A stretch of DNA of 64,000 bases from Chelativorans salis (GTDB lineage: Bacteria; Pseudomonadota; Alphaproteobacteria; Rhizobiales; Rhizobiaceae): positions 868,001-932,000 of the forward strand of contig NZ_JAOCZP010000001.1 in NCBI RefSeq assembly GCF_025336525.1. The letters run 5' to 3'. Below, one piece after another: positions 19,747 through 28,266 of this stretch; within the stretch, counting starts at the first letter, position 1; each line of letters opens with the position of its first letter. The position numbers were made by a program, and so were the translations under genes. The notes under the pieces are model-generated. The model made no database searches and was not told where the DNA came from. It saw nothing but the letters and a program-made list of their open reading frames with translations.

Positions 19747-20232
19747 TCACGATGTCGGAAAATCGTGCTTGTGGGCGATGGACCAGATTGTCTTGTTTAT
19801 CGCGACGAGCGAGGAGATGCTGTTCTTTATCTTCTCGACCTCCAGCTCATCGAGACTCTCGACCTTACCGTATTTGATGTCGTCCTTGCTTTCGAAAATG
19901 CGCATCAGTTGCGTGATACCGCGCCCGCTTTCGGGATCGAAGGAATAGATACAGTGGTTGAACTTGTTGCGAAGGCTGGCTTCTTTCGATAGTTGCCGAG
20001 TGACTTCAAGGATTTCCGACCTACACCCCGGTGGCGTCTTCCGCATCTTCGCGAGACGCTCGACGAGATCGATCCTGGCGCGCGGCGTGTTCAGTGTCAG
20101 GAAAATGATGATCGCCGTTTCCTTGTCCACTCCGGCAAGTCCCGCGATAAGGTAAATCAGCAGGCTTTCCGTGTTGGTCCAAGTGTAATTCAGTTGCCCT
20201 ACAAGAAGCAGGATATCCTGGAGTTTGGGCAT
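19747..20232 (-). CDS. Hypothetical protein (161 aa)
   Basis: I do not recognise a family. The ATG at 20232 opens a coherent 161-residue protein that looks real: balanced composition, a hydrophobic N-terminal third (LLLVGQLNYTWTNTESLLIY, then LIAGLAGVDKETAIIIFLTL), and charged helical segments (RIDLVERLAKMRK, LEVEKIKNSISSLVAINKTI). A central NKFNHCIYSFDPESGRG stretch resembles the NxxxH helix seen in some RNase- or kinase-like small proteins, but this is weak. Base composition is visibly more AT-rich than its neighbours, which may indicate transfer. It stands alone between the ABC operon and a gene-poor gap. Confidence 0.6.
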   Translation of the reverse strand: MPKLQDILLLVGQLNYTWTNTESLLIYLIAGLAGVDKETAIIIFLTLNTPRARIDLVERLAKMRKTPPGCRSEILEVTRQLSKEASLRNKFNHCIYSFDPESGRGITQLMRIFESKDDIKYGKVESLDELEVEKIKNSISSLVAINKTIWSIAHKHDFPTS

Positions 20233-20724
20233 CGATGCCAGCTTTCGATCTTCGGGGCTTCAGTCACGGCAGGATAGAATGTACGCCGAGCATTTTACAG
20301 CCGGAATAGACCGAACGGACTAGCCTTACGCCAGACCTAGAGCTTTATGGACAACCGCCTTCCAGATTAGGGGATCATCGATTGGATTAGATAAGGCTAC
20401 CTGATGGCCGACATCTACTTCACTTGCGGGCTCCCCACCCTCCAGCCTAGGCCGAACTGGTGTCTTCTGTCGGTTCACCACCAGCCACACACTGCCTCTC
20501 GTAGGCCGGGAAGCGGAAGCGGAAGCGGTCCGCCATCTCCCGGCGATAGGAACGGGAGGAACTGAACTGCACAATCGAAACTGAACGAAGGAGGTGGCGT
20601 CCGTCCGCGTCGATGCGCGTCCGGCCGCCAAACACAGCTTGTGAGATTAACGCCCGCGCAGCAAAGGCCCTAAGGAGATGAATAGCGGTTAAGCTGTCGC
20701 GGCCTCGAAAGAGAGGACACGATC
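20233..20724. other. 492-bp region without a convincing gene
   Basis: This lies between the 161-aa hypothetical gene and the Gln-Glu/Gly-rich gene. The minus strand has an open frame at 20326-20631 whose last 35 residues (EPASEVDVGHQVALSN, then PIDDPLIWKAVVHKALGLA) read like protein, but its first half is Arg/Ser/Ala-rich and typical of noise. It may be a decayed gene remnant. There is a short triple GGAAGC-type tandem at about 20510-20527. The promoter of the secretion locus should lie in the right-hand part. The ribosome site for the next gene (AGAGAGGA) is at 20710-20717. Confidence 0.5.
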
Positions 20725-22383
20725 ATGGGTACGTGGAACAACCTTTTTGGTTGGTATGATCAGGAGCAGGAGCAGGAGCAGGAACAGGAACAGGAACAGG
20801 AACAAGAACAAGAACAAGAACAAGAACAAGAACAAGAAAGCAAGCAGGAGCAGGAACAGGAGAGCAAATCCCTGAACCTCAATGGCAACGGCAATCTAAA
20901 CGGTAATCTGAATGGGAACGCCAATGCCAACCTGAACAAGAGCGTCAATATCAATAAGAACGAAACCGAGGTTGATGTGGACGTTGATGTCGACGTCGAT
21001 CTGGAAGGCTACATGCCCTCTGATGACGACTTCGCCGACATCGATATGAATGGCACCAACACCATTGAGGGCATGTTCAATACCAAATTTGAGGATGTTC
21101 TCAATGAATCCCTCAATGGCGCCGGTAACGACGTTGGTAACGTCATCAACCAAATCGCCAACATCTCCGATGACGACACGCTGAACAACGCCGAGGTCAA
21201 GAACGAAGACCAATTCTGGCAAGAGATCGATTCCCACGGCGGCTTCGCCAAGGCGGATGATGGGATCAATGCCGGCGGCGGTGGCGGCGGCGGCGGCGGA
21301 GATGCCGATGCCGATGGCGGCGAAGGCGGCGATGGCGGCCTGGCCTTCGGCGGCAACGGCGACGGCGGTGACGGCAACGGCGGTACTGCCACGAGCGCCG
21401 CGCTAGGCGGAATCGGCGTGGGCGGTCTGGCCGCCGGCGGTAATGCCGGAGCCACCGGCGGCACCAGCGGCTCCGCCAGCGGCGGCCAAGGTACTGGCGG
21501 GACGGGCGGCGCCGGCGGCGCAGGCACCGGTCTCGGTCTTGGGCTCGGATTGGGCCTGGGCATCGGCGCGGCGCTTGGAGGCAATAGCGGCAACAGCGAC
21601 GGCGGCACCGGTGGTGCTGGCGGCGCCGGGGGCGCGAGCGGTGATGCTGACGGCGGCGATACCGAAGACGATGCGGGCGATGGCGGGAACGCTATCGGCG
21701 GAGACGGCTTCAACGCACTGTTTGCCGGCATACCGATCCTCAATGACGGTGGCGATGCGGGGAACGCCGGGAACGGTGGAAGCAACGTAGGCGGTCCCGG
21801 CGGCACCACGACCGGTGGCGCGGGCGGCAACGGCGGTAACGCAAATGGCGGCACCACCGGCGAGGGCGGCGACGCGCTCGGTGCCGGCCTGGGCGGCGGG
21901 TTCGGCGCGGGCGTGGGCGCTGGCTTCGGCGGTGACGGTGGGAACGGCACCGGTGGTGTCGGCGGAGCGGCCACGAGCGGCGATGCGTATGGCGGCTATG
22001 CCGATGCCGGCGATGCCGCAGCTGGCGGCGGCCAGGGCGGTCAAGCGCTTAGCGGCGCCTGGGCTGACGCTGATGGCGGCGACGGCTTCGGCGGCTGGGC
22101 GCAGGCCGGCGGCGGCGGCGCTGGAGGAAACGGCGGCATCGCCACGACCGGCTTTGGCGGCAATGGCGGTGCCGGTGGAATGTGGGGCTCCAACAATGGC
22201 GATGACGGCTACGTCAGCGGCCATAGCACCGCAACAGCGGACTCCATCGTCAACACCAGCGCCTTCAACCAGGAGATCGTGATGGGTGCAAACCTGCAGC
22301 AGAACGCGATCGACATGACCGTGGTTGGCGGCAACCTCACCAGCAACGTTGCAGGCGAGGATTTCGACGACGCCGCTGCCTAA
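20725..22383 (+). CDS. Low-complexity (Gln-Glu)n / Gly-rich protein, putative type I secretion cargo
   Basis: No named family was recognised. The 552-residue protein has four zones. Residues 1-12 ([12 protein letters not shown]) are followed by 13 consecutive Gln-Glu dipeptides (13-38) and three more after an Ser-Lys break. Next come alternating tracts: [25 protein letters not shown], and five Val-Asp repeats at 83-92. A mixed acidic Asn/Asp-rich part (about 95-180) precedes a Gly-rich domain (184-486) with GG plus Ala/Asn/Asp/Thr, without clear RTX nonapeptides. A non-repetitive acidic C-terminus (487-552) contains [18 protein letters not shown] and [14 protein letters not shown] and ends DDAAA. 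There is no Sec or Tat leader and no cysteine-rich region. AGAGAGGA lies upstream of the ATG. It heads a locus encoding an ABC exporter and adaptor, so export with a C-terminal signal is inferred. Confidence 0.8.
20761..20838 (+). repeat. Hexanucleotide tandem repeat encoding (Gln-Glu)13
   Basis: Thirteen in-frame 6-bp units are of three kinds in blocks: CAGGAG, then CAGGAA, then CAAGAA. A 6-bp AGCAAG interruption and three further units (to about 20862) follow. Because each unit is 6 bp, gain or loss of units would change protein length without shifting the frame. Confidence 0.95.
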
Positions 22384-22392
22384 AGGCGCTCC

Positions 22393-22412
22393 GGTTCGCC
22401 CCTGGGCGAACC
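22393..22412 (+). terminator. Hairpin 1 of 3 after the Gly-rich gene
   Basis: A perfect inverted repeat, GGTTCGCC / GGCGAACC, with a 4-nt loop lies 10 bp after the stop codon at 22381-22383. It has no following U-run. It is the first of three consecutive hairpins in the 209-bp gap between the two putative cargo genes, so it may act in transcript processing, stability or partial termination. Confidence 0.6.
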
Positions 22413-22421
22413 TAACAACCA

Positions 22422-22447
22422 GGACTGCGCGGTTCTCCGCGCAGTCC
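22422..22447 (+). terminator. Hairpin 2 of 3 after the Gly-rich gene
   Basis: An 11-bp perfect stem GGACTGCGCGG / CCGCGCAGTCC with a TTCT loop, GC-rich and very stable. It lacks a U-run directly behind it. This is the strongest of the three hairpins and the likeliest transcription-attenuating or mRNA-protecting element between the two cargo genes. Confidence 0.7.
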
Positions 22448-22451
22448 ACCT

Positions 22452-22476
22452 GGATCGGATCACCGTTATCCGATCC
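22452..22476 (+). terminator. Hairpin 3 of 3 after the Gly-rich gene
   Basis: A perfect 9-bp stem GGATCGGAT / ATCCGATCC with a 7-nt loop, followed after AACC by TTTT (22481-22484). It could be a weak intrinsic terminator. The downstream repeat-protein gene begins at 22593. Confidence 0.6.
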
Positions 22477-22592
22477 AACCTTTTGCCTGGTTGCAATTCC
22501 GGACGGAGAACCAGTTCCTACTTTTCCTGGAATTGCTCCAGCCGAGTATGACCGGCCACGCAGCCAGCCGACCTCGTCAGGAGCTATGTGTC

Positions 22593-24557
22593 ATGCACAT
22601 GGACAGGATTACGGAAGCCATTGCACACTTTATCGGCCTGTTCGAGATTACGGTCGAAGAAGCGCGGCTTCGCGATGCATATGACGAGTTTCGAGCCAAG
22701 GAGACAGGCGATCCCGATCTTGCCGACCTGAACGCGACCGCGATACCGTTCGCCGCTCCCTTTCGGTTCGCCGGTTTTGAGCCCGATCTCGCCTATCGCG
22801 CTCCTCCGCCCGAGTGGGTCGTCGTTCACCCGTGGAGCTATCTCAGCTTTGTTCCCCCGGATATCACGCTGCCGGGAGCATACGAGATAGCCACTCCGAT
22901 CCCCTTCTCCCTGCCGGTAATAAACTACACCTCCCACAAGACCATCTTACCGGCGGTGGAGACGCTGGGATCCTTCGCGAACTACATCAAGCAGGACATC
23001 GGCCTGTCGGACAATGACTACTTCGGCGTCGGTGGGCACGGCCTGTACTTCAATCCGGCCCCTGCCAGCAATATCCATGTCATGGCGCTGACCGGTGCGG
23101 CCACCACCCTAATGCCTATTCTCGAACTTGAAATGCCTGGCTCTTCCGCGGAAGCCGCGGGATTTATGACGACTGCTTCGGAGCTTTTGGATGAATTTCC
23201 CGAGGATCCTGAGGGCAACGCGTTTGTGAAAAAGTCCGAAACCATCGAGGGGACGTTCGAAAACGGCGTAGAAGTCGACGAGGCCTCCAAGCTTGAAGAC
23301 TACTACACGTTCGATGAAGAGCCGGAAGGGGCTCCTTCGGGGAATGTCCAGCTTACGGAGAACGGGCCCGTCATCGAGCAGTCGGTCGAGGTAGAAACCG
23401 GTGGCAACACCCTGCTCAACAATGCCGTTCTGCAGAATTACTGGACCTCGTCACCGGTGATGGCCGTCGTTGGCGATCACATCGAGATCAACGCGATCTT
23501 CCAGATCAACGCGTGGTGCGACAATGACTATATTTCCTCCACGGTGGGCGGATGGATACATGACACCAGCCCGACGCAGGCGTTCAATATCGCAAAATTT
23601 GAGCGCTTCGACTCCTTTGGCGATGATACGTCGAACGGGGCGATGAGTTTCCCTAAACATTGGGTTATCAAGGAAATCGACGGCGATCTCATGATGATGA
23701 ACTGGCTCGAGCAGTTTATCTTCATGATGGACAACGACGTCGGTATTCTCTCCTCTTCAGGTGTCACCACACGCGTCTATTCCGGTGACAACAAAGCCTT
23801 CAACGACATTTCGATCGAGGAGATCGGCTTCGGCTATGATCTCATCATAGTCGGCGGAAACGTCTTCGACGCGAACATCATTCATCAGCTGAACGTTCTC
23901 AGTGACAACGACATTGTCGGTACCGTCGGTGGTTTCCAGACGACGGGTGACGGCTCTATTTCAACGTCGGGAAATCTGCTCTGGAATCAGGCCCACATCT
24001 ACAATGTGGGCGGAGCAGACCGGTTTGAAACAATGCCGGCCCATTATCTTGATGCCGCGAAGAATCTTGCAGCCGGCAACAACCACCTGAACGGTGAAGT
24101 GCTGTCGGATTCCGCCTTTGCCGGATACGGCGCACTGCGCGTGCTTCACATCAAGGGCGATCTCGTCAATCTTCAGTACATCAAGCAGACGAATATTCTG
24201 GGCGACAGCGACCAACTTGCCTTGGCGATGCATGCGAAGGATGCATACCCGGATGCCGCATGGTCGGTCTCCACCGGCGGCAACGCGCTGCTGAACAACG
24301 CTGCTATCCAAGATCTGGATTCGGTCGGGAAAACCTATGTCGGCGGCGGCCACTACTCGAACGAGGTCCTCGTACAAGCGGACATCATATCCACCGAACC
24401 GGATTTCGGCGGTCAGGACCCGAACGTGCTGGTCAACGAAGCTGTCGCGTTTCTCGATGACGACATGATGGACAACCGCGATCAGCCGCAGGGCGACCAC
24501 GGCCAGTACGATGCGGATTATCTGCAGTCGGATGGCCTGAGCACGATGATCGGATAA
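22593..24557 (+). CDS. Repeat protein with Asp-Asn-Asp motifs, putative type I secretion cargo
   Basis: No named family was recognised. I chose the ATG at 22593 (MHMDRITEAIAHFIG) because AGGAG lies 9 nt upstream; in-frame starts at 22491 and 22548 lack such a site. The 654-residue acidic protein has no signal peptide. An N-terminal helical part (1-60) precedes a Pro-rich segment and four diverged copies of a motif Q-x-N/I-x-x-x-D-N/S-D at about residues 140, 310, 438 and 538. Three or four of a paired T/G-GGN-x-L-x-N-x-A-x-I/L motif occur (near 270, 422 and 560). The pattern alternates hydrophobic and polar residues, as in stacked beta repeats. VVGGN/IVGGN pieces resemble the C-terminus of the preceding Gly-rich protein. 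It sits directly before the exporter genes. A secreted structural or adhesive protein is inferred. Confidence 0.8.
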   Translation: MHMDRITEAIAHFIGLFEITVEEARLRDAYDEFRAKETGDPDLADLNATAIPFAAPFRFAGFEPDLAYRAPPPEWVVVHPWSYLSFVPPDITLPGAYEIATPIPFSLPVINYTSHKTILPAVETLGSFANYIKQDIGLSDNDYFGVGGHGLYFNPAPASNIHVMALTGAATTLMPILELEMPGSSAEAAGFMTTASELLDEFPEDPEGNAFVKKSETIEGTFENGVEVDEASKLEDYYTFDEEPEGAPSGNVQLTENGPVIEQSVEVETGGNTLLNNAVLQNYWTSSPVMAVVGDHIEINAIFQINAWCDNDYISSTVGGWIHDTSPTQAFNIAKFERFDSFGDDTSNGAMSFPKHWVIKEIDGDLMMMNWLEQFIFMMDNDVGILSSSGVTTRVYSGDNKAFNDISIEEIGFGYDLIIVGGNVFDANIIHQLNVLSDNDIVGTVGGFQTTGDGSISTSGNLLWNQAHIYNVGGADRFETMPAHYLDAAKNLAAGNNHLNGEVLSDSAFAGYGALRVLHIKGDLVNLQYIKQTNILGDSDQLALAMHAKDAYPDAAWSVSTGGNALLNNAAIQDLDSVGKTYVGGGHYSNEVLVQADIISTEPDFGGQDPNVLVNEAVAFLDDDMMDNRDQPQGDHGQYDADYLQSDGLSTMIG

Positions 24558-24656
24558 CGGATTTTCTGGGCGGCATCGGTGGAATACGAACGCGGCACAT
24601 CACCAGGCTCGCCCGGCAAAATGCCAGGGTGCGCCGCCCCTCAACCAGAGGCTGCT

Positions 24657-26915
24657 ATGCGGCAATTGACGGCAAGTGAGGCAAAGATCGACCAAGGGAT
24701 GTCAGAGATCGATCGTTTGGTGCAGGAAATATTCGAGGAGGCGGCGTTGAAACGAGCCAGCGATCTGGCGAAACGCGAAGCCGCACGACCAATATCTGCT
24801 TCGAAGCAGCACGCGGCTGACGGCTCGAGGGACACGAGGCAGAATCTCGCCGAGCCATATCAGCATGCCTACATCCCAGAACGTGACGAGCCTCGACCCC
24901 AGGAGATTCGGCAAGAGGCCCCGCGGCGGGAGCCAGCCGAAGGGCGAGAAGGGGCAGAAGAACGCCGCCCCAGGGATAATGGCTCAGCCTCCACAAAGAC
25001 ACCGCATATACAGGAAATACCGAAGCCGGCTATGAAGCATGACGACCGCCCCGAAGGCATCGTCACCATCGAAGGAGACCGCAACCCGATCAAGGCGCGC
25101 GAGCGCGCGGCCGACCAAGCGGGCGATTCCGGCCGTGGCAAAGGACCGAGCGGCAAGGGACCCGGCGGCGGTGATGGCGTTTTTCACAAGCGGCTCGGGC
25201 CTGTGGATTTTGCCGCCAGTCTCAAGGCTGGTTTGACAGCGGTCCGGCAGAATCTCTTGGTCGTCATGGTCTTCACGGTGGCGAGCAACGCCCTGGTGCT
25301 GGCGATTCCGATCTATCTTTTCCAGATTTCGGACCGCATCCTGACGAGCCGATCGATCGACACCCTGGTGATGCTGACGGTTGTCATCGTCGGCGCAGTC
25401 ATTCTGCAGGCGGTATTCGACGCGATCCGGCGCTTCATTCTCATGCGGACGGCCGTCGAGTTTGCCGCACAATTGGGTTCGCCTATCCTCAGTGCCGCAG
25501 CGCGGGCTTCTTTGCATGGAAGCGGTCGCGAGTATCAGACGCTCGGTGATCTGCAACAGGTCCGTTCATTCCTTGTCTCGCGCACGCTGCTTTCCTTCCT
25601 CGATGCGCCGATCGCCCCACTGTTCGTGCTCGCGGTATTCTTGATCCATCCGCATCTCGGGTCGATCGTCGTGGTGACGGCGCTTTTGCTGCTTGTTTTT
25701 ACACTCATCAACCAGCGCGCCACGGCAGGGCCGTTCGGAGAAGCGAACACTGCGCAGGTCAAGGCCAACCTCCACCTGGAGTCCATGTCCCGCAATTCGC
25801 AGATCATCAATGCTCTGGCGATGATACCGGAGGCCGTGCAAATCTGGGGCAAGGATACGGCTGGTTCCTTGAAATCGCAGGTCGTTGCACAGGACCGCAA
25901 CATCGTCTTTGCTGCCCTGTCTAAAGGCTCGCGGCTCCTCACGCAGGTCGCAATGCTCGGCTGGGGCGCCTATTTGGCGATCGAAGGCGAGATCACCGGC
26001 GGCATGGTGATTGCTGCATCCATCATCGCAGGCCGCGCACTGGCGCCAATCGAGGGCGCCATCGAGGGGTGGAACCAATACAGTCAGTCCCGCTCGGCTT
26101 TCGAACGCATATCGACGCTGCTGAAGACATCCCCGCTCAATTTCGAGCGCCTGAACCTACCGCGGCCGGAGGGGCGCCTGGATGTGGAAAGGCTGCTTTA
26201 TGTGCCTCAGGGAACGAAGAGGGTCGTTCTCAACGGTATATCCTTCGCATTGACGCCGGGGGACTCTCTGGCCGTCATCGGAAATTCCGGCGCCGGCAAG
26301 ACGACGCTCGGCAAGATGCTTGTCGGGTCCATCCTTCCAACTTCAGGTAGCGTCAGGCTCGATCTCATGGATTTGCGCAACTGGGACCAGCGGCAGTTCG
26401 GCGAGAATATCGGCTACCTTCCGCAGGATGTTCAGCTCTTTCCCGGCACGATCAAGGCCAATATCGCACGCATGCGCGAGGATGCGACGGACGCGCAGAT
26501 CTACCAGGCGGCGAAGCTTGCGGACGTCCATGAGATGATCGCGACGTTGCCGCACGGCTATGAGACGGTCGTTGCCGGGGACGGGACGCCGCTTTCCGGT
26601 GGCCAAAAGCAGCGCATCGCGCTTGCCAGGGCCTTCTTCGGCAATCCGCGTTTGGTTGTACTCGATGAGCCTAACTCCAATCTGGACAGCGCTGGGGAAG
26701 AAGCGCTGGTGCGCGCGCTCGAGCACGCCAGGGAAAACAAGATCACCGTGATCACGATTACGCAGCGGCCGGCATTGCTCAACAATGTCGACAAGATCCT
26801 GCTTCTGGTGAACGGCACCGTTGCTCTGTTCGGTGTGCGCAAAGACGTTCTGCAAGCGCTTTCGACGCGCGGGGTGAGCATAGAGAACGGTTCCTTCGGG
26901 CACCAGATAAGCTGA
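24657..26915 (+). CDS. Type I secretion ABC exporter (PrtD-like) with long disordered N-terminus
   Basis: This is an inner-membrane ABC transporter and ATPase driving one-step export. I chose the ATG at 24657 (AGAGG 7 nt upstream); a GTG at 24579 would add 26 residues. Residues 1 to about 180 are charged, low-complexity and probably disordered (KREAARPISASK, EERRPRDNGSAS, GKGPSGKGPGGGDG). They do not resemble a C39 peptidase or the peptidase-like domain of HlyB. The membrane domain follows (LVVMVFTVASNALVLAIPIY, then LFQISDRILTSRSIDTLVML), as in PrtD/AprD. The ATPase domain has Walker A GNSGAGKTT (about 542-550), signature LSGGQKQR (646-653) and Walker B RLVVLDEPNSNLD. The expected H-loop His is Gln703 (TITQRPALLNNVD), an unusual change. 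The gene starts 99 bp after the second cargo gene and precedes the adaptor by 13 bp. Confidence 0.88.
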   Translation: MRQLTASEAKIDQGMSEIDRLVQEIFEEAALKRASDLAKREAARPISASKQHAADGSRDTRQNLAEPYQHAYIPERDEPRPQEIRQEAPRREPAEGREGAEERRPRDNGSASTKTPHIQEIPKPAMKHDDRPEGIVTIEGDRNPIKARERAADQAGDSGRGKGPSGKGPGGGDGVFHKRLGPVDFAASLKAGLTAVRQNLLVVMVFTVASNALVLAIPIYLFQISDRILTSRSIDTLVMLTVVIVGAVILQAVFDAIRRFILMRTAVEFAAQLGSPILSAAARASLHGSGREYQTLGDLQQVRSFLVSRTLLSFLDAPIAPLFVLAVFLIHPHLGSIVVVTALLLLVFTLINQRATAGPFGEANTAQVKANLHLESMSRNSQIINALAMIPEAVQIWGKDTAGSLKSQVVAQDRNIVFAALSKGSRLLTQVAMLGWGAYLAIEGEITGGMVIAASIIAGRALAPIEGAIEGWNQYSQSRSAFERISTLLKTSPLNFERLNLPRPEGRLDVERLLYVPQGTKRVVLNGISFALTPGDSLAVIGNSGAGKTTLGKMLVGSILPTSGSVRLDLMDLRNWDQRQFGENIGYLPQDVQLFPGTIKANIARMREDATDAQIYQAAKLADVHEMIATLPHGYETVVAGDGTPLSGGQKQRIALARAFFGNPRLVVLDEPNSNLDSAGEEALVRALEHARENKITVITITQRPALLNNVDKILLLVNGTVALFGVRKDVLQALSTRGVSIENGSFGHQIS

Positions 26916-26928
26916 GGGCGATCGCGAA

Positions 26929-28266
26929 ATGTCCGACATTGCGAAAGTTCACGACATCGAATGGTACTCCGACGTCCCACGCTCGATCCGGAAGCAGACG
27001 ACGGTGGGTCTCGTGCTCCTTGCCCTCACATTCGGGGGGTTCGGAGGTTGGGCCGTTACAGCTCCGCTTGCGGCGGCAGTTATCTCGCAGGGAAGTTTCG
27101 TTGCCACTGGACAAAACAAGGTTGTCCAACATTTCGAGGGAGGGATTATCAAGGAAATCCTGGTGAACGAAGGTGATCGGGTCGAGGTCGGCCAGCCACT
27201 GGTACGCCTCGACGAGACGGCAGCGCTGGCCAGGGAACGCGAGTTGTTCTTGCGGCGCATCAGGCTTGAGGCCATTGCCGCACGGCTCACTTCCCAGTTC
27301 GCCGGATCCGATGAGCTGGTGTTTCCAGCTCTCGTGGCAGACAATGAGGGCGATGTCGATATTGCACCGATGCTGGAAGGGCAGCGGCTCAATTTCGAAG
27401 CCTGGAAATCCAAACGTGACAGCGAGATAGCTTTACTCGAACGAAATATCGAGGCGTTGCGGTACCGCGCTGAAGGGTATGAGAAGCAGCGCGATGCGAC
27501 GGCGCTTCAGTTGAAGCTTTTGCGGGAAGAGGCGGAAGGGAAGGATATCCTTTTGAAGCAGGGCCTGATCCGCAAGACGGAGATAAAGGCCATCCAGAGG
27601 GCGATCGCTGAGGCGACCGGCCAGATCGGTCGTTTGACGGCGGAGGTTTCCGAGACCTACTCGCAGATCGGCAAACAGGAGCAGGAAATCGTCCAGGCCG
27701 AGAATGCTTATCGGCAGGCCGCGCTAGATGAACTGGAAGGTATCCAGGGGGAACTCGATTCCGTTCGGGAGCAATCTCGGGCAGCGGAAAACATCCTACA
27801 GCGAGCGACGATAAATGCGCCAGTTGCCGGAACCGTGGTGCGCTTGAACTATCACACCCCAGGCGGTGTGATCGAGAGCGGTAAAGGCATACTGGAAATC
27901 CTGCCAGCCGGAGCACCACTCATCATCGAAGCGCAGATACCGAGAACCGAGATCGATAGCGTAAGACGCGGGCAGAAGGCGACTGTGCGACTGACAGCGC
28001 TCAACCAGCGCACAACGCCTGTCCTGAATGGCGACGTCTTTTACGTTTCCGCTGACGCACTGCCTGGGCAGAAGGCTGAGCAGGATCAGGAAGTTTACCT
28101 CGCGCGCGTCCGCCTACCGCCAAGCGAACTGGCAAAGGTTAGAGGTTTTCGCCCGACTCCAGGAATGCCGGCGGAAATCCTTATTCAAACAGCCGAGCGT
28201 ACATTCTTCAGCTATATCACCAGGCCGATCGCGGATAGCATGTCGCGTGCGTTCTCCGAGCGCTGA
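26929..28266 (+). CDS. Type I secretion membrane-fusion adaptor (HlyD/PrtE-like)
   Basis: This 445-residue periplasmic adaptor would connect the ABC exporter to an outer-membrane TolC-type channel. It has a short cytoplasmic N-terminus, one membrane segment (about 24-48, TVGLVLLALTFGGFGGWAVT) and a split lipoyl/barrel domain opening with VQHFEGGIIKEILVNEGDRV. A long coiled-coil hairpin (about 95-290; LLRE, ETYSQIGKQEQEIVQAE, ELEGIQGELDSVREQ) follows. The returning lipoyl half INAPVAGTVVRLNYHTPGG and C-terminal barrel include GMPAEILIQTAERTFFSYI, the classic PrtE/HlyD ending. It starts 13 bp after the exporter. No TolC homologue is seen in the window, so the outer-membrane channel must be encoded elsewhere. 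Confidence 0.92.
   Translation: MSDIAKVHDIEWYSDVPRSIRKQTTVGLVLLALTFGGFGGWAVTAPLAAAVISQGSFVATGQNKVVQHFEGGIIKEILVNEGDRVEVGQPLVRLDETAALARERELFLRRIRLEAIAARLTSQFAGSDELVFPALVADNEGDVDIAPMLEGQRLNFEAWKSKRDSEIALLERNIEALRYRAEGYEKQRDATALQLKLLREEAEGKDILLKQGLIRKTEIKAIQRAIAEATGQIGRLTAEVSETYSQIGKQEQEIVQAENAYRQAALDELEGIQGELDSVREQSRAAENILQRATINAPVAGTVVRLNYHTPGGVIESGKGILEILPAGAPLIIEAQIPRTEIDSVRRGQKATVRLTALNQRTTPVLNGDVFYVSADALPGQKAEQDQEVYLARVRLPPSELAKVRGFRPTPGMPAEILIQTAERTFFSYITRPIADSMSRAFSER

Follow-up and report, generated by a model that had tools for sequence, protein, structure and literature searches.

A conserved four-gene locus of Chelativorans salis links two acidic repeat proteins to a putative dedicated type I exporter

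Introduction

The surface-layer protein RsaA of Caulobacter, which is of the RTX type and binds calcium, is exported by the PrtD-type system RsaDE, and the curli system combines CsgA/CsgB subunits with the LuxR-type regulator CsgD. Here we describe a locus of four genes, termed A, B, C, and D, that invites comparison with these and related systems. It lies in a 64,000-nucleotide stretch of the Chelativorans salis genome (RefSeq assembly GCF_025336525.1, contig NZ_JAOCZP010000001.1, positions 868,001 to 932,000 of the forward strand), hereafter called the window, with coordinates counted from its first base. A and B encode an alternating-dipeptide protein and a β-repeat protein, C encodes a PrtD-type ATP-binding cassette (ABC) exporter, and D encodes an HlyD-type periplasmic adaptor. 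A literature search that covered few subscription journals returned no publication that we recognized as describing this locus.

Among the systems that we found, BapA-BapBCD of Paracoccus denitrificans is, by analogy, the nearest precedent. BapA is described as a very acidic protein of 2,211 residues, composed for the most part of alternating Asp-Ala repeats, whose gene immediately precedes a type I system, and mutants lacking BapA or this system are biofilm-deficient (PMC5588039). Likened by these descriptions, both loci place an acidic alternating-dipeptide protein upstream of a type I exporter, here with B intervening; BapA-BapBCD has one cargo and an in-cluster gene for an outer-membrane protein, whereas the locus of the window has two candidate cargos and no such gene. 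The same report gives P. denitrificans a single type I system according to TXSScan, in a strain that may differ from HAMBI_2443 (PMC5588039); a HAMBI_2443 record, titled as a plasmid, carries a locus of the window type (L172). Such loci may have been overlooked because they have no local TolC gene.

The PrsDE system of rhizobia is reported to secrete at least thirteen proteins from diverse genome regions, and toaDE and tobDE of Rhizobium leguminosarum are described as PrsDE-like systems for which no cargo is known nearby (PMC2275737). The locus in the window shares with these three systems the pairing of a PrtD-type ABC protein gene with an adaptor gene (toaDE and tobDE being compared by description). 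Unlike PrsDE as portrayed there, its exporter is tied to two neighbors without RTX matches and possesses an N-terminal extension. The placement of a gene for a presumably abundant surface protein just before its own PrtD-type exporter is reminiscent of RsaA; unlike RsaA, neither A nor B has an RTX-repeat (hemolysin-type) match in Pfam at E ≤ 1. A possible major and minor subunit, along with a divergent LuxR-type regulator in relatives, would work like the curli and Fap systems, from which the locus differs in that export would use a type I system and not the Csg or Fap machinery. No curlin or other amyloid family was detected with Pfam in the A or B of the window or in four scanned A homologues.

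Results and discussion

Gene content of the locus

A preliminary description, made from the sequence alone, had placed A, B, a PrtD-type exporter, and an HlyD-type adaptor between positions 20725 and 28266, and our analysis confirms this four-gene locus. The genes occupy the + strand within 7.5 kb: A (20725-22383) encodes 552 residues, B (22593-24557) about 654, C (24579-26915) 778, and D (26929-28266) the adaptor. In the list of open reading frames B begins at a TTG codon (22491), and conservation moves its start to the ATG at 22593 or 22599; the GTG start of C is uncertain. C matched TIGR01842 (PrtD) with 712 bits (cut-off 510) over residues 219-761, and D matched TIGR01843 with 376 bits (cut-off 209). 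As also stated in the preliminary description, the window contains no TolC homologue; the single TIGR01844 (TolC) match over the cut-off in this genome lies on another contig, where it provides an available TolC-type gene. Judged by eye, A and B appear to be without signal peptides.

Ahead of its PrtD domain, C carries an additional low-complexity N-terminal extension of ∼200 residues (24579-25230), which measures 57-324 residues in 72 relatives. In many of these the extension closes in a segment resembling 'FHKRL.P.DF' just before the PrtD domain. A pattern written for a motif in the extension was found in only 46 of 72 and was not adopted as a signature of the exporter.

Linkage of A and B to the exporter

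The gene order is conserved. In each of the 76 loci fetched from relatives, C and D come after B, and A or its end is located directly upstream of B in each of the 75 loci that have upstream sequence. The 76 loci comprise 67 of the 69 places returned by the family search (the window's own genome and G001 being omitted), eight from a search of relatives, and one from a class sample. A was identified from its composition, a match to its C-terminal motif adding to the score. The 75 A-B loci include 71 that passed the composition filter, one below the threshold that was recovered by inspection (L141), and three in which the contig starts within A such that just the C-terminal end can be read (L092, L116, and L118); L167, with 20 bases upstream, was excluded. 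A separate scan found B, C, and D together in 14 of 14 named genome loci, and the order B-C-D was present in all nine fetched loci (Sulfitobacter, two Paracoccus, Sinorhizobium meliloti, Ensifer, Pararhizobium, Qingshengfaniella, Shinella, and Cereibacter) of the 32 plasmid records that match B. The complete order A-B-C-D was kept in five more loci from a phylum sample (L180, the end of A only), three of them outside the window's family but within its order, and one in a different family of its class.

Matches to the B profile and to the exporter core fell in the same 67 of 297 family genomes, which represent 34 of 109 genera, and lay at neighboring places, with exporter orthologues that were 61-97% identical to C. 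The exporter limit of E ≤ 1e-150 was chosen to exclude paralogues and was applied to at most four candidates per genome; two further PrtD proteins encoded in the window's genome, 40-41% identical to C, fall outside it. At the limits used, neither B nor an orthologous exporter was found in the other 230 family genomes. Because few candidates per genome were scored (for B, a maximum of four, three, and two in the family, class, and phylum samples, respectively), these absences mean 'not found'. B was frequent in the window's own genus (13 of 16 genomes) and scarce elsewhere (2 of 385 class-sample genomes and 8 of 398 phylum-sample genomes, all eight within the class), the window's genome being included in all three counts.

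The preliminary description had read the locus as dedicated to making and exporting a surface, fiber-like, or matrix material, on the basis of gene order and closeness. Of the refuting outcomes that it named, the two open to computation were not encountered: the cargo genes do not occur mostly without the exporter, and at the limits used the orthologous exporter was not seen without B. The dedicated-export reading is stronger than could be known from one sequence. The part that concerns a dedicated type I locus is well supported, whereas the surface, fiber-like, or matrix nature of the product is something that we infer. For export itself the support is indirect and comes from the co-occurrence, the acidic and Cys-poor character of the cargo, and the conserved C-termini.

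Two observations concern individual plasmid records. Two Sulfitobacter plasmid records under one organism name each contain a copy of B (H15/H16 and H19/H20), possibly reflecting duplication or plasmid rearrangement. In S. meliloti CP090106 (L018), the exporter gene is present, with 72% identity, though missing from the listed gene table; this 3.7-Mb record is titled pSymB, yet its size and its tyrosine-catabolism neighbors appear chromosomal, and it may be mislabeled.

Protein A

A opens with 13 Gln-Glu pairs, continues through Asn-X and Val-Asp stretches, and then enters a Gly-rich body; 164 of its 552 residues are Gly, Cys and Arg are absent, and the isoelectric point is 4.05. The 13 pairs are encoded by blocks of identical hexamers, and for that reason the run probably grew by slippage. 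Comparison with NCBIfam at E ≤ 0.1 gave no match for A, and comparison with Pfam at E ≤ 1 gave two rows only, both far under the curated cut-offs.

Alignment of the orthologues revealed a recurring plan. The proteins open with alternating dipeptides, often with Gln in every second place (QE, QG, QD, or QQ), and in some relatives this stretch is swapped for repeats of Ser/Asp/Lys/Glu or Asp/Asn/Ser. An alternating Asn stretch (NGNLNGN) follows, then a Val/Asp stretch that closes in '..P.DDDFADID', then a segment 'DIL..AL.GAGNDVG.V..Q.....D.D.L', and then the Gly-rich body, which is variable and is missing from some relatives. The plan ends in a conserved C-terminal domain, '..AFNQ.IV.GANLQ.N..D.TVVGG....GEDD', and GA[ND][LVIM] is present in all 71 collected A proteins. 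In 55 of 72 A proteins the longest period-2 alternation was longer than in any of 200 shuffles; in the remaining 17 it was not. The alternating residue itself varies across the 72 (Asn in 32, Gln in 13, Gly in 10, Ala in 5, Thr and Asp in 4 each, Ser in 3, and Arg in 1), and the A protein of L122 has an Ala-Asp run resembling that of BapA. Median isoelectric points were 4.05 for A and 4.06 for B, both being poor in Lys and Arg, and Cys was absent from 65 of 70 A proteins (of the 71, the partial A of L133 was left out).

Protein B

B consists of an N-terminal helix, four to five β repeats, and a conserved C-terminal tail. The B of the window contains four copies of the motif G.N...N, one of them with Ser for Gly, and five of Q.....D.D, and many invariant columns of the alignment coincide with these two motifs. 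The nine matches compare with a mean of 0.57 and a maximum of 5 in 2000 shuffles, and the tail meets a loose pattern, D-x-hydrophobic-Q/H-x-hydrophobic-hydrophobic-A/G, in 73 of 76 proteins, where both the repeat motifs and the tail pattern were composed after the sequences and alignment had been viewed. The B of L167, truncated by a contig end, is included in the B counts.

No match to B was obtained in NCBIfam at E ≤ 0.1 or in Pfam at E ≤ 1. Consistent with the impression in the preliminary description that neither cargo is an ordinary RTX protein, profile searches thus assigned neither A nor B to a Pfam or NCBIfam family and detected no RTX repeats in them. B belongs to a family with at least 354 proteins at E ≤ 0.001 in a large protein collection, searched by scoring only those candidates that had the most words in common with it; its closest named relatives are Chelativorans proteins with 87-88% identity. 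An AlphaFold model of B was mostly β, with long, regularly spaced strands (mean predicted local distance difference test (pLDDT) score of 72.7, predicted template modeling score of 0.70, and 157 of 655 residues below pLDDT 50). Foldseek searches with this model placed FapC and CsgA among the top rows, neither being significant. The structural comparison yields no significant resemblance to functional amyloids.

A hairpin between A and B

The gap between A and B contains a hairpin (22422-22447, + strand) with a perfect 11-bp stem and a 4-nucleotide loop. Stems of at least 9 bp were found in 69 of 72 A-B gaps (the window included). The corresponding counts in control stretches were 6 of 71 for the end of B, 8 of 70 for the region 5' of A, and 18 of 71 for the interior of A (a high value for a control); among shuffled gaps the count was 52 of 720, the mononucleotide shuffles preserving base but not dinucleotide composition. 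Folding energies, evaluated with 12 shuffles of this kind per gap, were below the gap's own shuffle mean in 71 of 72 cases and beyond two standard deviations in 63. A GCGC anchor is shared by 51 of the 69 stems, and the outer and inner pairs vary in both arms; at one stem position the pairs were AT in 23, GC in 12, CG in 8, and TA in 6, although the scan takes the best stem per gap and so biases these counts toward pairing, the real test being the controls and shuffles. An RNA element is favored by these data and not proven, because a palindromic protein site would give the same two-arm changes.

No Rfam match to the hairpin was obtained at E ≤ 1. On the + strand of the window no T-run follows the stem, and at least five T in the next ten bases were present after only 4 of the 69 stems. 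Because most stems are without a T-run, a partial terminator or mRNA-stabilizing element is likelier than a full terminator. We propose from the sequence that the hairpin may act in mRNA stabilization, processing, or partial termination to set the level of A above that of B.

Possible functions of the locus

A surface or matrix polymer is the most likely product in view of the exporter co-occurrence, the acidity and the scarcity of Cys and basic residues, the conserved C-termini, and the BapA precedent. On balance we consider it rather probable that the four genes form one transcription unit that makes and exports an extracellular polymer, with A and B both leaving the cell by a dedicated C-D exporter. 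A and B, apparently lacking signal peptides, would be synthesized in the cytoplasm; C would probably recognize their conserved C-termini, and D, together with a TolC-type protein whose gene lies elsewhere in the genome, would conduct the two proteins out of the cell. There, A could serve as the major subunit, self-associating at the surface or in a biofilm matrix through its Gly-rich body and its alternating segments (Gln-X, Asn-X, and Val-Asp), and B, with its β repeats, could be a minor component on which A is nucleated or anchored. The hairpin 3' of A would hold the A messenger above those of B, C, and D, and with it the stoichiometry of the subunits.

Tentatively, this polymer might be a two-component functional amyloid or silk-like fiber of Alphaproteobacteria, in which A forms β ladders, B is the nucleator, a CsgD-like LuxR-type protein is the switch in most relatives, and the hairpin adjusts the A:B ratio. 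The amyloid version is attractive, but its basis is the alternation, the Gln and Asn content, the possible major-minor layout, and a structural hint that is itself not significant.

Somewhat unlikely in our estimation, but best placed among the competing explanations, is the export by C-D of A and B as soluble or loosely attached polyanions that act as adhesins or bind calcium, exopolysaccharide, or plant surfaces. Both proteins are strongly acidic, glycosyltransferase and galE genes flank the Sulfitobacter locus, and BapA is itself a candidate for a calcium-linked adhesin (PMC5588039). The maintenance of alternation while the alternating residue shifts between species, and the high-A design suggested by the hairpin, are somewhat more in keeping with an abundant subunit that assembles, though not decisively.

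Less plausible again is the export of a single one of the two proteins, with its partner acting in the cytoplasm as a chaperone or escort. The products of neighboring genes may have different fates, and a clear hydrophobic C-terminal tail is found on B only; however, A and B are both acidic, poor in Lys and Arg, and equipped with conserved C-terminal regions, and the low-complexity body of A is in our judgment unlike a chaperone. The export of a contact-dependent toxin or bacteriocin is very improbable: type I systems can export bacteriocins and the distribution of the locus is uneven (67 of 297 genomes), but Pfam (E ≤ 1) detected no C39 peptidase in C and, like NCBIfam, no toxin or enzyme family in A or B, no search aimed at an immunity gene having been made. 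A chance neighborhood, with the exporter serving something else, is all but excluded: nothing in its favor was found, and it is contradicted by adjacency in 76 of 76 loci and occurrence in the same 67 of 297 genomes.

If the preferred reading of an exported polymer is true, a locus present in 67 of 297 family genomes plus rhizobial and marine relatives makes an unrecognized extracellular protein material, and a non-RTX class would be added to the type I cargos along with a new route to matrix fibers. The interchangeable dipeptide repeats (QE, QG, QD, NG, and AD) would then amount to a natural series for the effect of alternation alone in a secreted protein. Because the exporter is linked to its cargo, one pair of knock-outs could test the whole idea.

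Neighboring genes

A gene divergent from A, here called U (19747-20232, - strand), encodes a conserved protein of 161 residues that is 50-69% identical to a regulator-adjacent protein in four other genera. Among 68 loci with at least 4 kb of upstream sequence, U was present in 53 and a LuxR-type regulator in 46. Regulators were counted wherever tblastn gave a match (E ≤ 1e-10) in the upstream part of a fetched stretch; one of them is on the + strand, and a further two lie farther out than 3.8 kb. U is on the strand opposite A in 51 loci and the regulator in 45; of the 68 loci, 35 have both genes and 4 have neither. Pfam scans of three regulators recovered a LuxR-type DNA-binding domain in each and a receiver domain in none, and their records label all three as response regulators. 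In the window no LuxR-type regulator was found beside U (20233-20724), and the best regulator match elsewhere in the genome covers the DNA-binding end only (42% identity over 77 residues). Within the same genus the regulator accompanies three loci (L158, L161, and L162) and was not seen at three others (L159, L160, and L163), and this mixed presence suggests repeated loss.

The flanks, as read from the genes of the window, are seemingly unrelated to the locus, with a substrate-binding/ABC uptake cluster upstream, an iron-uptake-like set downstream, and a methyltransferase gene (identified with Pfam) in between. The U protein of the window matched no Pfam family. It possesses conserved 'NYTWTNTE' and 'RNKYNH' stretches, the second of which (R-N-x-x-x-H) presumably resembles the HEPN nuclease motif.

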